A DNA stretch of 64,000 bases from Ensifer sp. LC11. GTDB taxonomy: Bacteria > Pseudomonadota > Alphaproteobacteria > Rhizobiales > Rhizobiaceae. The notes under the pieces are model-generated. The model saw only the letters and a list, made by a program, of their open reading frames with translations. It did not search any database and was not told where the DNA came from. The translations under genes and the position numbers were made by a program. The stretch is taken from contig NZ_MBSO01000012.1 in assembly GCF_001695835.1 (NCBI RefSeq), forward strand, positions 496,001 to 560,000, given 5' to 3'. Below, one piece after another: positions 22,107 to 35,887 of this stretch (positions are counted from its first letter, which is position 1; every line of letters starts with the position of its first letter).

Positions 22107-22209
22107 TGGAGCATCCTGCCCTCAGGTGGGATCACCGTGGGGCAGAGAGATGCTCACAGAATCGAAGTGCTAGAGCGTGCTTATGCGTTCATGAACGCAC
22201 GGCGCTTTA
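22107..22209 (+). repeat. Intergenic repeat A, copy 3 (diverged)
   Basis: Both hairpins are recognisable (GAGCATCC...GAGATGCTC and TGCGTTCATGAACGCA). Its middle reads AAGTGCTAGAGCG, which is important because it shows the intact form of the site disrupted by the IS630-type element at 29766. Confidence 0.8.
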
Positions 22210-28911: not shown

Positions 28912-29025
28912 CGGGTGCTGCGCGACGCCGTAGTGTGGCGGTGCCATCTCCGCTATAGTCTTTGTCGGTGCCGGGATCGATTTTTGCAAATTGCCGAAGG
29001 GCGGCGTGATCAGGAGGCGAGGCCG

Positions 29026-29709
29026 ATGGCAGAACGGAGGGCGCAGCCGTTGCAGCCGGGAGATCCGGCTCCGGACTTCACGCTTGCGAGCGTCAATCGC
29101 GACGCTCCGGTTTCGCTTGCGAGCCTCAGTGGCCGTCCGTTTCTGATCGGTCTGTTCCGCGGATTGCATTGTCCCTTCTGCCGCCGTCAGCTCCGGCAGC
29201 TTTCCGCCGTCGAGCCGGCACTTCGCGCCGTCGGCGTCGAGACCTTGGCAGTGGTCAATACACCGGTCGAGCGGGCGCGCCTCTATTTCCGCTACCAGCC
29301 GACACCGGTCACGCTGCTTTCGGATCCGGAGTGCCGGACGCATCGGGATTTCGGCGTGCCGCGCGCGGTGTTCCTTTCGCCCGATAGCGACGAGCCGCCG
29401 CAATGGCCTGATCGCGCAAGGCTGGCGGATTTCGAGGCGACGCGCATCAACCCCACGGGCGAATTGCCGGAACCGGCGCAGCCGATGCGGGCCAATGATA
29501 TACTCAATGCCATGGACGGCTTCGAACTCAACGAGACGGACAGTCGCATCTACACGGAGCATGGCACACAGCTTGTCGGCCATTTTCTGATCGATGCGGC
29601 CGGCATCGTGAGATGGAGCGAGATCGAAGCGCGCTTCGGGCCGGAGGAGCTCGGCGTCTTCCCGGCTTCACGCGAAATCATGCTTGCTGCCGGCAAACTC
29701 GCCGGCTAG
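29026..29709 (+). CDS. Peroxiredoxin-like/AhpC-TSA family protein
   Basis: This 227-residue protein has a thioredoxin fold with a CPFC active site (Cys49, Cys52) in FRGLHCPFCRRQL. The sequence around it (GDPAPDFTL, then PFLIGLFRG) is the AhpC/TSA pattern. A CxxC at this place favours thiol-disulfide exchange as well as peroxide reduction. ATG 29026 follows AGGAGGCGAGG. Eight bases past the stop begins the interrupted repeat A. Confidence 0.85.
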   Translation: MAERRAQPLQPGDPAPDFTLASVNRDAPVSLASLSGRPFLIGLFRGLHCPFCRRQLRQLSAVEPALRAVGVETLAVVNTPVERARLYFRYQPTPVTLLSDPECRTHRDFGVPRAVFLSPDSDEPPQWPDRARLADFEATRINPTGELPEPAQPMRANDILNAMDGFELNETDSRIYTEHGTQLVGHFLIDAAGIVRWSEIEARFGPEELGVFPASREIMLAAGKLAG

Positions 29710-29767
29710 ATCCCGCTCTCAAGTGGAGCCACATGAGGCGGAAAGATGCTCTAGAATCAAAGAGCTA
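29710..29767 (+). repeat. Left half of intergenic repeat A, split by IS element
   Basis: The sequence TCCCGCTCTCAAGTGG...GATGCTCTAGAATCAAAG matches the left half of repeat A up to the central AGAGCTA. The right half continues only at 31727. The two TA bases at 29766-29767 and 31727-31728 are the target duplication. Confidence 0.85.
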
Positions 29768-29803
29768 GTGTTGTAACTCTAACGCTTGTTTCGCCCTTGC
29801 GAC

Positions 29804-30081
29804 ACCGCCGCAGGTGATCTACGCGTTGATCCCGATCGGGAGCGAGATCGCCCCGTTGCTCGCCAATGTGATGCAGTGGCTGAGTACGCGCATTGCGCAC
29901 ATCGCCGATTCGCAACAGGAATTCGACAATGGGCCGGCCGCAAAGGTTGGAGCTCCTCGGACGTGGATGGGGGGCGCCTTGCGGCTCTCGTCGGTGCGAT
30001 TGTCGCGGGACTGAAATCCTAGGGACCAAGCGGTAAGCTTGGTACCCTTCCTAAAACGAAGACCACATTTGGGAGAGGCCT
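29804..30081. other. Passenger left flank, no confident gene
   Basis: Between the IS remnant and the oxidoreductase a short frame (29814-30014, + strand, hydrophobic start) and opposing frames exist but none has a ribosome binding site or recognisable motif. It may be a gene remnant brought in with the unit. Confidence 0.4.
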
Positions 30082-30687
30082 ATGAAAGCGCTTGTCGTGG
30101 TTTGCCATCCGGCTGCCGATAGTTTCAATCACGCGCTGGCGGAAGCGGTGCGGGCGGCTTGGACATCCGCGGGGTGTGATGTCGTCTTTCATGATCTCTA
30201 CGCAGAAGGTTTTGATCCGCTTCTGTCCGCGTCCGAAGCTCGGGGCACGTCGACCGCGGACAAGACAGTCGCAGCGCATATTGCCGAGCTTCGTGCCTGT
30301 GATCTGCTCGCTGTCATTCATCCCAATTGCTGGGGCGCACCGCCGGCAATGATGAAGGGCTGGATCGATCGCGTGTTCGCCTCGGAGGCCGCCTACACAT
30401 TCGCCAAAGGCGTTGACAACGGGGACGATCCGATCGGCCTGTTGCGGACGCGCGCTGCTTTGATCCTGAACACGGGCAACACTCCGGCCGAACGTGAGAA
30501 GAATCACTTCGGCGACCCGCTCGATCACATCTGGCGGCGGTGCATTCTCGAATTTTGCGGCGTGAAGCATGTGAGCCGCGCGCTATTTGGTGTCGTCGCC
30601 ACAAGTTCCCGCGACGAGCGACGAGCGTGGTTGGAACAGGCTGGAAAGAAGGCGCGGGAAATGTGGGAGCTAGCGTTGCGACGCTAA
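30082..30687 (+). CDS. NAD(P)H-dependent oxidoreductase, flavodoxin-like (quinone reductase type)
   Basis: This 201-residue protein has the NQO1/flavodoxin-like fold: MKALVVVCHPAADSFNHALA at the N-terminus (flavin-phosphate region) and HPNCWGAPPAMMKGWIDRVF for the flavin contact and dimer. Such enzymes reduce quinones or azo compounds. GGGAGAGG precedes the ATG. The last six codons and the stop lie in IS sequence (boundary at 30671-30672), so the original C-terminus was replaced by LALRR. It is the passenger of the mobile unit. Confidence 0.88.
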   Translation: MKALVVVCHPAADSFNHALAEAVRAAWTSAGCDVVFHDLYAEGFDPLLSASEARGTSTADKTVAAHIAELRACDLLAVIHPNCWGAPPAMMKGWIDRVFASEAAYTFAKGVDNGDDPIGLLRTRAALILNTGNTPAEREKNHFGDPLDHIWRRCILEFCGVKHVSRALFGVVATSSRDERRAWLEQAGKKAREMWELALRR

Positions 30688-31707
30688 CGTTTGTTTCGCC
30701 CTTGCAACCTTTTCGAGGATTTGGGCGGCGGACTTTATCCAGACGAAGGGTTTGGGGTCGGCATTGTGGGTTTCGAGGTATTGCATGATGGCGTCTATCA
30801 GCTGTGCGACACTTTTGAAGGCTTCGCGGCGGATGCGGTTTCGGGTGATGTCGGCAAAGAAGCGTTCGACCATGTTGAGCCAAGATGCCGAGGTGGGCGT
30901 GAAGTGCAAGTGGAAGCGCGGATGCGCCTTGAGCCAGCGGTTCACGGCCGGGGTCTTATGGGTGGCATAGTTGTCAACGATGAGGTGAAGGTTGAGACCG
31001 GTGGGGGTCCTTTGATCGATCAGCTTGAGAAAGCGCACGAACTCGCGATGACGATGGCGCGGCATGCAGGTCCCGATGACCTTGCCGTCCAGCATGTTGA
31101 GCGCCGCGAACAGGGTGGTGGTGCCGTTGCGCTTGTAGTCGTGGGTCATGGTGCCGGCGCGGCCCTTCTTCATCGGCAGGCCGGGCTGGGTGCGGTCGAG
31201 GGCTTGAATCTGGCTCTTTTCATCGACACACAGCACCAGTGCCTTGTCCGGCGCATCAAGATAGAGCCCGACCACATCCTCGACCTTGGCGGCGACGTTC
31301 TTGTCGCGCGAGACTTTGAACGTCTTGACAAGATGCGGCTTCAGCCCGTGCGCCCGCCAGATCCGCTGGACGCTACCGTAGGAGATGCCTGCCGCCGCCA
31401 TGCTGCGCGTGCTCCAGTGGGTCGCGTTCGGCGGTTCCTCGTGCAGCGCCATGCGCACCACCTGCTTGATCTTCTCGGGCGCTAGCGGCTTGACGCGCGT
31501 CAAGAGCCCATCCACCCCCTTGACCACATAGCGGCGGCGCCAGCGGCGCACCGTCAGCAGACTTTTGCCGGCCGCCGACGCAATCGCCTCCGCCGTCAAT
31601 CCATCGCTCGCCAACAGCACAATCCGCGCCCGCCAAACCACCTTCTGGGGCGTCTTCCGGTCCCGGACCAGCCGCTCCAGTCTCCTCGGTCCGGTCCGAA
31701 TGGACAA
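30670..31707 (-). CDS. IS630-family DDE transposase
   Basis: This 345-residue transposase is intact. Residues 1-75 form the helix-turn-helix DNA-binding part (WRARIVLLASDGLTAEAIA). The DDE triad is Asp162 (LCVDEKSQ), Asp245 (HLIVDNYATH) and Glu281 (SASWLNMVERFF), with the IS630-specific spacing of about 35 residues between the last two. The stop codon TAG uses the TA of the element boundary, so the gene fills the element to its very end. Promoter and ribosome binding site are weak, as usual for insertion sequences. Confidence 0.95.
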   Translation of the reverse strand: MSIRTGPRRLERLVRDRKTPQKVVWRARIVLLASDGLTAEAIASAAGKSLLTVRRWRRRYVVKGVDGLLTRVKPLAPEKIKQVVRMALHEEPPNATHWSTRSMAAAGISYGSVQRIWRAHGLKPHLVKTFKVSRDKNVAAKVEDVVGLYLDAPDKALVLCVDEKSQIQALDRTQPGLPMKKGRAGTMTHDYKRNGTTTLFAALNMLDGKVIGTCMPRHRHREFVRFLKLIDQRTPTGLNLHLIVDNYATHKTPAVNRWLKAHPRFHLHFTPTSASWLNMVERFFADITRNRIRREAFKSVAQLIDAIMQYLETHNADPKPFVWIKSAAQILEKVARAKQTLASQR

Positions 31708-31726
31708 CCTCTCGAAAGCTCACAAC

Positions 31727-31763
31727 TAGAGCGTCCTTGCTGCATTCGTATGAACGCACGGCG
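31727..31763 (+). repeat. Right half of intergenic repeat A, split by IS element
   Basis: TAGAGCGTCCTTGCTGC followed by ATTCGTATGAACGCACGGCG continues the repeat A sequence that stops at 29767. Joining both halves across one TA gives AAAGAGCTAGAGCGTCC, as in copy 3. Confidence 0.85.
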
Positions 31764-31880
31764 CCCCAGGCGGGCGTGCAGGCAAGGGGCGGCGGTGTTG
31801 CGTCGCCGGCTGGAACGGCCGCGCGTTACGGTTAGCCGCTTGCGCCGGGGTTGTGTCCGCGCATAGTGGGCAATCTTACA

Positions 31881-32468
31881 ATGTGGCAGTCTGGCCTTCA
31901 TGAGAACCCTTCGCATCCATCCCAACTTCACGACGTGTTCGGCGAAGAGCAGCCGCCGGCCTATCTGGCAGCGATCCTGCTCGTTGGGATCGGCGCGGCC
32001 GCCGTCTTCGCGCTGTCGGCGGGGCCGATGCTTCAGGAGCTCGCCTGGTGGCGGGCGGCACTGGCGCTTGTCCTCGTCCTCGATATCGCCGCCGGCTGTG
32101 TCGCCAACTTCACCCCCTCGACCAATGATTTCTACGCGGCGCGGCCGCGCAATCGCTGGATCTTCATCGCCATCCACGTGCACATAATTGCCGTCGCGCT
32201 CATCATCGGCAGCGGGCTTGCTCCTGCGATTGCTGTCTGGGCCTATACGATTGCCGCGGCCACGATCGTCAACTTGCTTGCCGGGCGCGCGCAGCAGACC
32301 TTTGTTGGTGGGCTGCTGCTGGCGGTTGGCCTCACCGGCTTGCCGCTTCTGCCTGGCCTGACGCCGGCGATGGTGGCGGTTGCGGGCCTCTTCATGCTGA
32401 AGGTGCTCTTCAGCTTCGCGGTCGATCATTATCGAACCGTCTCGCCCCAAGATGGGCACCCGCGCTGA
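31881..32468 (+). CDS. Hypothetical multi-pass membrane protein
   Basis: This 195-residue protein begins MWQSGLHENPSHPSQLHDVF and has about six membrane segments (for example AYLAAILLVGIGAAAVFAL and FIAIHVHIIAVALIIGSG). Most of the chain is in the membrane, and the C-terminus is short and charged. The family is not recognised; the layout resembles small uncharacterised integral membrane proteins of rhizobia. TTG 31851 is an upstream alternative start. It stands alone beside the mobile element. Confidence 0.72.
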   Translation: MWQSGLHENPSHPSQLHDVFGEEQPPAYLAAILLVGIGAAAVFALSAGPMLQELAWWRAALALVLVLDIAAGCVANFTPSTNDFYAARPRNRWIFIAIHVHIIAVALIIGSGLAPAIAVWAYTIAAATIVNLLAGRAQQTFVGGLLLAVGLTGLPLLPGLTPAMVAVAGLFMLKVLFSFAVDHYRTVSPQDGHPR

Positions 32469-32604
32469 TGCTCGGTTCGGCACGAGCTGCCTCCAGGGAT
32501 CTGGCGGAAGGCGCGTCCACTGCCTCGGGCGCCCCGGTCCGGGGTTCTGACCTTGCTGCCGCGGTCCACGGCATGAGGCTGGGTGCGGTCAATGTTTCCG
32601 GAGA

Positions 32605-32653
32605 TTCTAGAGCGCCGTGCGTTCATGTGAACGCACTAGGGACGCTCTAGAAA
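32605..32653 (-). repeat. Right half of repeat A, reverse orientation
   Basis: Read on the minus strand it gives GAGCGTCCCTAGTGCGTTCA and TGAACGCACGGCGCTCTAG, the second hairpin of repeat A alone. It lies directly downstream of the outer membrane protein gene and could act as a terminator stem. Confidence 0.7.
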
Positions 32654-34353
32654 CTCCAGGAAACATGCAGCTTACCCTCCCACACATCGAGATCTTTCTG
32701 GCCAAAGCTCAAATAGCCGCCCGTCGCCTCGAGCTGGAGGTTGTCGTTCACCAGCATTCGGAAGCCGGAGCGCAGCGAGAACGACCATGGCGAGGGTGTC
32801 ACTTCCGACAGGTCGCCGGTCAGGATCTTGCCATCGTTCGGCCGTTCGAACTGGTATTCGGCGCCAAGCTCGGTGAAGACGAGAAACGGCTGCCCGTCCG
32901 GCAGGCGGAAGTAGCGGCTGATTTCGGTCGACAGATCGAGAACGCCGTAGTTGTAGCTGTCGCCGGGAAGGGAAACGCTGACCGGTATGTTGAGGATGTT
33001 GCCCGAAAGGTCGTAATCGTCGCTGTTGATGTGCGACCAGCTGACCGACACCTTGGGACGGATGAGATAGGCATCGACCTTGTATTGGCCGTGGAGCGAG
33101 ATTTCGCCGGCAAGACGCTCGGAATCCTGTTCGCCGCTCAACACGCTGAGATCGATATCGTTGTCGTAGCGCCCATAGGTCAGCGATCCGTCGATCGCCC
33201 AGTGCTTCGAGAGGCGGTAGGCGGCATAGGGGCCGAAGCTGAAGCCATCGGTATCGATGCCCAATGTGCCGTCGAACGCGTCGGTCGAACTGTCTTCAAG
33301 GGCAACGGTCATCCCGACGACAAGGTCGCTGGTGATGCGGCGATCAAGGCCCATGGTCAACGAGCGGGCGAGCGTATCGCTGTCGCGGTCGTAGCGGTTG
33401 TCGGATATGTCTGCGAACTGGATGTCCGACCAGAAATTCCAGAGCGAGGGCGCCGGCAGATCGCGGCCCGGCGTCAATGGCACCTGAGAAGATCCGCCGC
33501 CGCTGCGGGCGGCAGCGTCTTTGGCGGCGAGATCACGGCAGATCGGCAGGTCGCGCTGCTGCTTGGAATTCACCGATCTCGGATCAATGCAGGTATCGGG
33601 CGTCCTGCCGGCGATCACCCGGCCACCCCTGACCGCGGTCGGGGTGCGTGGATTGAAGCCCGGATAGATCGGCTGCGGGCGAACATCGGGTCGGCCATCG
33701 GGCAGCGAGAAATCAGGAAAAACGGGCTGCGGTCCGACGTCCGGCCGACCATCGGGCAGCGAGAAATCGGGAAAGACGGGTTGCGGGCCAACGTCCGGCC
33801 GGCCATCGGGCAATGAGAAATCAGGAAAGACGGGCTGCGGGCCGACGTCCGGCCGGCCATCGGGCAGTGAGAAATCGGGAAAGACGGGCTGCGGGCCGAC
33901 GTCCGGCCGGCCATCAGGCAGCGACAAATCGGGGAGGACGGGCTGCGGGCCGACATCCGGCCGGCCATCGGGCCAGTTTATGTCTGGAAAAAGACCATCA
34001 CGCACCTGGTTCTGCGTGTCGAGCAGGCACGGCTTTCCGCCGGACAGGTCGTAGAGCTTGTGCGTGCCGCCGTTGCCGTTGGAAACGACTGGGGACAACG
34101 AGAGATGGAGGCCACGTCTGCTCTTGGTCCAGGTGTCGACCGTTTGGTTGCCTTGCGCCGCTTCGAGGCCGAAGGATCCGGCGCTCGTTCCTGAAAGCCA
34201 GACGGAACTGGTGGCCCCTTTCGTATTGCCGAGATAGGCCAGGCCGCCGCTGGAACTGCAATTGGCGGCAACGGCTACGCCTGGCATTGCGAGACTGCCG
34301 AGGCCCGTAAGCAGCCCGGCATAGGCTGTGATCGATCGACAGCGGCTAACCAT
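32647..34353 (-). CDS. Outer membrane beta-barrel (autotransporter-like) protein with 18-aa tandem repeats
   Basis: This 568-residue protein has a signal peptide (about 1-30, ending PGVAVAAN), a small N-terminal domain with two Cys, six tandem 18-residue units of the type LPDGRPDVGPQPVFPDFS (residues 127-234), a linker, and a C-terminal beta-barrel domain (about 330-568). The barrel ends in VSWSF, the terminal aromatic signature used for outer membrane insertion, and has alternating amphipathic strands. It resembles autotransporter barrel domains, though no passenger domain of the usual beta-helix kind is present. GGGGAG lies 12 bases upstream of the ATG; longer frames to 34497 are not supported. 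Confidence 0.85.
   Translation of the reverse strand: MVSRCRSITAYAGLLTGLGSLAMPGVAVAANCSSSGGLAYLGNTKGATSSVWLSGTSAGSFGLEAAQGNQTVDTWTKSRRGLHLSLSPVVSNGNGGTHKLYDLSGGKPCLLDTQNQVRDGLFPDINWPDGRPDVGPQPVLPDLSLPDGRPDVGPQPVFPDFSLPDGRPDVGPQPVFPDFSLPDGRPDVGPQPVFPDFSLPDGRPDVGPQPVFPDFSLPDGRPDVRPQPIYPGFNPRTPTAVRGGRVIAGRTPDTCIDPRSVNSKQQRDLPICRDLAAKDAAARSGGGSSQVPLTPGRDLPAPSLWNFWSDIQFADISDNRYDRDSDTLARSLTMGLDRRITSDLVVGMTVALEDSSTDAFDGTLGIDTDGFSFGPYAAYRLSKHWAIDGSLTYGRYDNDIDLSVLSGEQDSERLAGEISLHGQYKVDAYLIRPKVSVSWSHINSDDYDLSGNILNIPVSVSLPGDSYNYGVLDLSTEISRYFRLPDGQPFLVFTELGAEYQFERPNDGKILTGDLSEVTPSPWSFSLRSGFRMLVNDNLQLEATGGYLSFGQKDLDVWEGKLHVSWSF
33652..33975 (-). repeat. Six tandem 54-base coding repeats
   Basis: Six in-frame 54-base units encode the PDGRPDV.PQP repeat of the outer membrane protein. 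The middle four are almost identical at the protein level with a few synonymous changes, the first and last are diverged. The unit number is likely to vary between strains by slippage or recombination. Confidence 0.92.
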
Positions 34354-34613
34354 GTTACGCGTGCTCCCCCAAGCTTGCGTCGACCTCGTCGATACGAGGC
34401 ATGGTCTGCTGCGCCAGCCGCGTCCGGCAGGCGCAACACCCCTTTTCCGAGTGGCACGGCAAAGGGTGAACGATGAATCGTCAACTCCAGCTTGCACATT
34501 CCCTCAATGCCGTGGACAGTGCTACCGTCAAATTTCAGTGGAAGCTTGTGGACCGGTACCAGTGTTTTCAAGGGTGTTGGCACCGCAACGGTCGGCACGA
34601 GGAGGAGGGGCGG

Positions 34614-35612: not shown

Positions 35613-35792
35613 GCAATTCCAGGAAAAGTGTGCAGCGGTTTTTCGTCCGGAATTGCGAACGTTCAAACCACCGCAATTCCAGGAAAAGTGTGCAGCGGTT
35701 TTCCGTCCGGGATTGCGAATTTTCAGGCCACCGCAATTCCAGGAAAAGCGTGCACCGGTTTTCCATCCGGAATTGCGAATTTTCAAACCAGA
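35613..35792. repeat. Three tandem 60-base hairpin units
   Basis: Three units repeat with an exact period of 60. Each starts GCAATTCCAGGAAAAG and contains the matching GGAATTGCG (or GGGATTGCG) near position 35-45, so each folds into a hairpin with arms GCAATTCC/GGAATTGC. The core GTGTGCAGCGGTTTTCCG also occurs, as single palindromic units, near 55179 and 53615 and in reverse near 3915. Units 1 and 2 differ in few bases. Confidence 0.85.
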
Positions 35793-35887
35793 GCAACACG
35801 AAAGCGTGAATTGGGAGGGTGAATTTATTGCGTGTATTTTAGTTGGGTTTCGTCATGCCGCTCAACCGCAATCCAGAGGGTTTGCTC

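Follow-up and report, generated by a model that had tools for sequence, protein, structure and literature searches.

A cargo-bearing IS630-type unit in an intergenic repeat of Ensifer sp. LC11, probably altered by a later IS481-family insertion and a deletion

The window, the whole stretch of 64,000 nucleotides that we analysed, contains a split copy of an intergenic repeat (repeat A, which we take to be RIME-like). Between the two halves lie a short IS630 end, a decayed fragment, an oxidoreductase gene, an IS630-type transposase gene and the end of an IS481-family element. The features are listed below; L005 and L009 are intact copies of the repeat in the same genome, L074 to L078 are copies of the oxidoreductase unit in other genomes, and L125 and L131 are complete relatives of the two insertion sequences (IS630 and IS481, respectively).

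29710–29767, plus strand: left half of the intergenic repeat A (family D2, with sister copies L005 and L009); its last bases are the CTA of the CTAG target
29766–29767: TA inside the CTAG at 29765–29768, the left-hand copy of the target bases duplicated by IS630 (in the same register, L076, L077 and L078 have TA and L074 and L075 have CA)
29768–29803, plus strand: IS630 end bounding the unit on its outer left side, left over from a first IS630 copy (D9; likeness to the inner end; end of Microvirga L125)
29804–30022, plus strand: decayed fragment that may come from the 3′ end of a gene for an HxlR-type regulator (weakly supported, by a match of the L075 fragment; indels in other copies)
30025–30043: inverted repeat ACCAAGC-GGTAA-GCTTGGT before the cargo gene, a putative operator (sequence; similar sequence in L074)
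30082–30687, plus strand: cargo gene, flavodoxin-fold NAD(P)H/quinone oxidoreductase (Pfam Flavodoxin_2)
30670–30673: CTAG at the inner IS630 left end (sequence; relatives)
30670–31707, minus strand: IS630 transposase open reading frame with a TTG start, catalytic-domain frame open (NCBIfam, Pfam)
31675–31682: CTCCAGTC, 8 bases common to both parents, the deletion join (L075, L131)
31683–31724, minus strand: IS481-family end (terminal TGTGAGC in the minus-strand reading; 50 bases including the shared CTCCAGTC)
31725–31730: ACTAGA, the one copy that survives of the 6-base target duplication made by IS481 (own-genome repeats; complete IS481 copies)
31727–31769, plus strand: right half of repeat A (D3, I6; sister copies L005 and L009)

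Repeat A is split at a CTAG: the left half stops within the CTAG at 29765–29768, and the right half restarts with the CTAG at 31726–31729. Joined together, the window flanks read AAAGAGCTAGAGCGTCCTTGCTGC, and the identical string is present in the two intact sister copies L005 and L009, so both halves come from one repeat copy. An earlier note on this DNA had described a repeat cut in two with TA at both junctions, and that description holds. We preferred L005 and L009 as uncut templates over the place at 22165, the single occurrence in the window of the uncut string AAGTGCTAGAGCG; the other two repeat copies within the window have GCGAG at the corresponding position. The left half has at least 39 more matches elsewhere in this genome (best 40 of 126 candidates scored), and a G precedes the CTAG in all 19 repeat copies read (L002–L020, of the 39 matches listed). 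Window points 29664 and 31816, which are 2,152 bases apart, lie only 105 bases apart in L138 and L139 of the same genus, with neither the repeat nor the cargo unit between them. Eight other same-genus loci are uninformative on the empty site, as L136 and L137 show pieces of the right neighbour only and L140–L145 have none within the 1.5-kb flank. Rfam at gathering scores gave no match in window positions 29000–33000.

Several other repeats lie nearby. A lone palindromic part of repeat A is found at 32607–32650 (I6), where the left half is absent. Tandem 54-base repeats at 33601–34032 encode an 18-residue repeat within a 616-residue minus-strand reading frame (32647–34497), whose product looks like a putative autotransporter-type outer-membrane protein. 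At 35613–35796 a different intergenic repeat (D4) occurs as three tandem copies of 60 bases, with related sequence in L140, L142 and L144.

The left part of the inserted segment carries two IS630 left ends, an outer and an inner one, identical at 31 of 37 bases over 29767–29803. The outer end is the remnant that the earlier note had placed, together with an oxidoreductase gene, between the repeat halves, and both are indeed there. Behind the outer end, the fragment at 29804–30022 may derive from the 3′ end of a gene for an HxlR-type regulator; the match of the L075 fragment to HxlR is weak (E 0.0034, under the gathering score), and the window frame is without a match. The inverted repeat at 30025–30043 could then possibly be the operator of the lost regulator. 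The CTAG at the inner end would be the former target of the second IS630 copy.

The cargo gene, whose stop codon is located within the inner IS630 end, has its best matches among solved structures in NAD(P)H-quinone dehydrogenases (E 6e-20). Its reading frame is open in all seven copies found, and dN/dS ranges from 0.195 to 0.461 over 21 pairs, as estimated by a simple pairwise method from few changes. Six aligned copies show zero gap columns in the 591 bases of the cargo, and three of the six (L074, L077 and L078) carry large indels in the 225-base fragment upstream of it. The cargo is presumably expressed.

The transposase is of the IS630 type with a DDE domain (NCBIfam NF033545, 261.2 bits against a cut-off of 100; Pfam DDE_3). 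The earlier note had called it intact, and this does not stand: the first 15 codons, counted against L075, are absent, 8 codons are read from the IS481 end instead, and the IS630 right inverted repeat is gone. The window unit thus has its outer and inner IS630 left ends and no right inverted repeat, leaving its ends unpaired. The IS630 copy in L075, from a Mesorhizobium metagenome-assembled genome, matches the window up to base 31682 and then continues for 102 more bases to its own right end, and L076 and L124 retain a right end similar to that of L075. In three of three relatives that are complete and lack the cargo (L125 of Microvirga and two copies in G119), the native ends are TA-GTGTT...ACAC-TA, with TA on both sides and a right end reading ..ACAC-TA-G. 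We rejected 31683–31724 as a native IS630 right end, since the relatives end otherwise.

That stretch is instead the end of an IS481-family element. Positions 31675–31728 give short matches in many genomes of the window's family, and in 6 of 6 loci read the IS481 end is common to them at 90–98% identity. The transposase beside this end in L131 reaches 328.7 bits with the IS481 model of NCBIfam (cut-off 224). Of the plasmid copies, those closest to L131 (82%) carry the annotation IS481 family. Among the rows listed, only ISRel2 has an element name, at about 75% identity to L131; the nearer copies go by the family name. The IS481 element of Bordetella targets NCTAGN. Identical NCTAGN hexamers flank five of the six complete IS481 copies examined (L131 and L174–L177, the element ends of L174 and L176 having been compared visually); the hexamers of L173 are unlike. 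In the window NCTAGN is present on one side only, as ACTAGA, and about 50 terminal bases of the IS481 element are left, without its transposase. The left TA of the IS630 duplication is present at 29766–29767, and the right TA, which the earlier note had assigned to the same duplication, falls inside the duplication of the IS481 element, at that element's outer end. A full copy of this IS481 element was not found in the same genome, a 73-contig draft, where only the end piece appeared (best 40 of 100 candidates).

The two parents of the right end meet at CTCCAGTC, which is present once in each of the proxies used for them (L075 4623–5272 and L131 483–1528); 133 of the 613,660 position pairs of these proxies lie in a shared stretch of at least 8 bases. 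Measured on the proxies, the window lacks about 102 IS630 bases and about 994 IS481 bases. The junction beyond the IS481 end has ACTAGA, where the intact sister repeats have GCTAGA. If a native IS630 right end adjoined the repeat, the sequence would be ..ACACTAGAGCG, with ACTAGA inside it, and this argues that the unit came first and that the IS481 element entered at its right junction. The IS630 unit was therefore probably present before IS481, although the argument rests on one base (A versus G), which a later substitution could mimic.

We propose a history in three steps. An IS630-type unit of ~2.0 kb, made up of an outer left end, an hxlR-like fragment, the cargo, an inner left end, a transposase gene and a right end, would have entered the CTAG within the intergenic repeat, giving rise to the TA duplication. 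Next, an IS481-family element would have entered the ACTAGA formed by the right end of the unit and the repeat, duplicating these six bases. A deletion of ~1.1 kb between two CTCCAGTC copies, one lying in the 5′ part of the IS630 transposase gene and the other close to the outer end of the IS481 element, would finally have removed about 100 bases of IS630 and about 1.0 kb of IS481. The outcome would be an immobile scar in which the cargo gene alone is likely to be working. We put the probability of this history at about 0.84, and we infer both the order of events and the immobility of the window copy. Against it count the unlike hexamers of L173 and the lack of a full IS481 copy among the own-genome candidates scored, as well as irregular ends in some of the other copies of the unit.

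The best surviving alternative reverses the order: the IS481 element would have entered the repeat first, the IS630 unit would have inserted into the CTAG at its left side, and a deletion would have followed. This would give the same layout, and relatives of both elements occupy CTAG. The reversed order predicts GCTAGA at the right junction, in keeping with the G of all 19 own-genome copies read, but ACTAGA is seen, and we regard it as unlikely.

The preferred history, with unit insertion first, draws on copies of the cargo unit elsewhere. The cargo is found at six loci besides the window: L074 in Rhizobium alarense, L075 in the Mesorhizobium genome, L076 in Rhizobium sp. Root1220, L077 in Aminobacter sp. 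AP02, L078 in Kaistia dalseonensis, and L124 (G303). Protein identity of the cargo is 88–97% in L074–L078, and L124 has 90% DNA identity; G683, which holds the same kind of locus, is probably L078 again. More distant cargo relatives (L079 onward, at most 74% identity) were also seen, of which L079–L082 match the window essentially within the cargo gene. The left end, the decayed fragment, the cargo and the inner IS630 end are present in five other loci (L074–L078), with an eroded copy in the sixth (L124), where the left end is lost. The left ends of L074–L078 are in the register of the window, that of L078 being diverged (27 of 35 bases). At the boundary, the dinucleotide is TA in four of six (window, L076, L077 and L078) and CA in two (L074 and L075). 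The 1.5-kb left flanks of these six loci show no mutual similarity at E 1e-3, and a shared left boundary with unrelated left flanks is the trace expected of a moving unit. Three copies (L075, L076 and L124) keep the right end, each without a clean flanking TA. These right ends, the two CA boundaries and the divergence of L078 are the irregularities that count against the three-step history. Movement of the unit as a whole would be supported by the left boundary together with the three copies that retain the right end; an intact version was not found among the seven copies.

Wider comparisons add some context. No plasmid record had one place covering 80% of the query (best 20 of 585 records), and the 47% query coverage of the top record is the transposase part. 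Six of nine relatives in the genus Aminobacter have both flanks with other sequence in between, leaving no clean empty site, and for G026 the genus holds one genome only for such a comparison. In Rhizobium alarense (L050:4296–4394) about 100 extra bases stand before the cargo, and the same stretch occurs at five or more other places in that genome, which looks like the insertion of a small repeat.

We consider it very unlikely that there was never a moving cargo unit and that IS ends, oxidoreductase gene and transposase were joined at this locus by separate insertions and recombination. The damage to all seven transposases and the lack of an intact copy would fit such an assembly, but the order of parts and the left boundary recur at five other loci, in several genera and with unrelated left flanks, and three copies keep the right end. 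Least credible of all is the proposal of the earlier note, in which the entire 1.96-kb segment, its IS630 transposase intact, transposed a single time and duplicated TA: it has in its favour the TA within CTAG at both junctions, the splitting of one repeat copy and a left boundary common to other loci, but the right end is of the IS481 family with a deletion join just inward, the IS630 right inverted repeat is missing, the transposase start is replaced, and no second copy of the segment or of the unit was found in the same genome (best 40 of 126 candidates scored). That the present segment ever moved as it stands is most unlikely. The transporter-IS interpretation that accompanied this proposal survives for a cargo-bearing IS630 unit, which has a transposition boundary at its left at five other loci, and fails for the present segment. 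The earlier note had also said that differing unit lengths in related genomes would speak against its reading; the lengths do differ, but the differences arose through one insertion and deletions that came later.

The transposase is damaged in each of the seven copies: the window has a hybrid start and a lost end, L075, L076 and L124 have internal deletions, L074 is truncated, and L077 and L078 have nothing past the inner end. In six of eight cases the break nearest the cargo lies 3–49 bases inside an IS630 end (five of seven if L075 and L077 share one). The distances are 36 bases for the outer remnant, 32 for L076, 40 for L075, 40 for L077, 49 for L078 and 3 for L124, the exceptions being L074 (161 bases) and the window (1,010 bases). 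A uniform model with a 50-base limit and a 1,133-base IS gives 2e-7 for six of eight and 3e-6 for five of seven, values that serve as a lead only, because both the limit and the model were set with the data already in view, and selection would remove any break that fell inside the cargo. The breaks near the IS630 left ends (L075–L078, L124 and window 29768–29803) look as if the end were protected. It is a doubtful, speculative idea that the element delivers its cargo and loses its engine, spreading a quinone-oxidoreductase gene among Hyphomicrobiales while the transposase is repeatedly destroyed and the cargo kept, with the loss as if steered by bound transposase or by the overlap of cargo stop and IS end.

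The unit resembles transporter ISs and composite IS630 elements, with cargo between IS630 ends and insertion at TA in CTAG. Going by the title of a paper by Tenzen and Ohtsubo (J Bacteriol 173:6207, 1991), an IS630-associated composite transposon reportedly prefers TA in CTAG. The window unit differs from a transporter IS in that its first IS630 copy is cut to a 36-base end, its quinone-oxidoreductase-like cargo stands behind a decayed, possibly regulatory fragment, and its transposase is damaged in all seven copies found. In ISEcp1-like one-ended capture, an IS moves together with an adjacent gene by means of an alternative outer end, whereas the outer end here is a copy of an IS630 end and not a chance look-alike. 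The term transporter IS (tIS) is in use, at least in parts of PMC9330008. Like the IS630 unit, ISY100 of Synechocystis (IS630/Tc1/mariner) has a single transposase, short terminal repeats and a TA duplication; ISY100 is without cargo, and the window element is without one end. Passages of PMC2170065 describe TA duplication by IS630-type elements and ISY100 mini-transposons with 30 bases of each end that are as mobile as the full element, so the 36-base outer end of the window unit could work. The window end resembles the IS481 family and ISRel2 in its terminal TGTGAGC, and among its relatives five of six complete copies have the 6-base NCTAGN duplication and an IS481 transposase is present; 6-base duplications occur in most IS481 members, according to a portion of PMC10045372. 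IS-adjacent deletions and missing duplications are discussed in part of PMC11708052. No title naming this cargo unit was found in the literature searched (open-licence full texts).

The locus indicates that two ISs sharing the target CTAG can nest and collapse into a mimic of a single clean insertion; a TA match between the two ends is therefore insufficient evidence for one event. It also points to a small cargo-bearing IS630 unit, present in seven genomes, in which the cargo persists after the transposase has decayed, and this bears on how ISs may seed genomes with metabolic genes.
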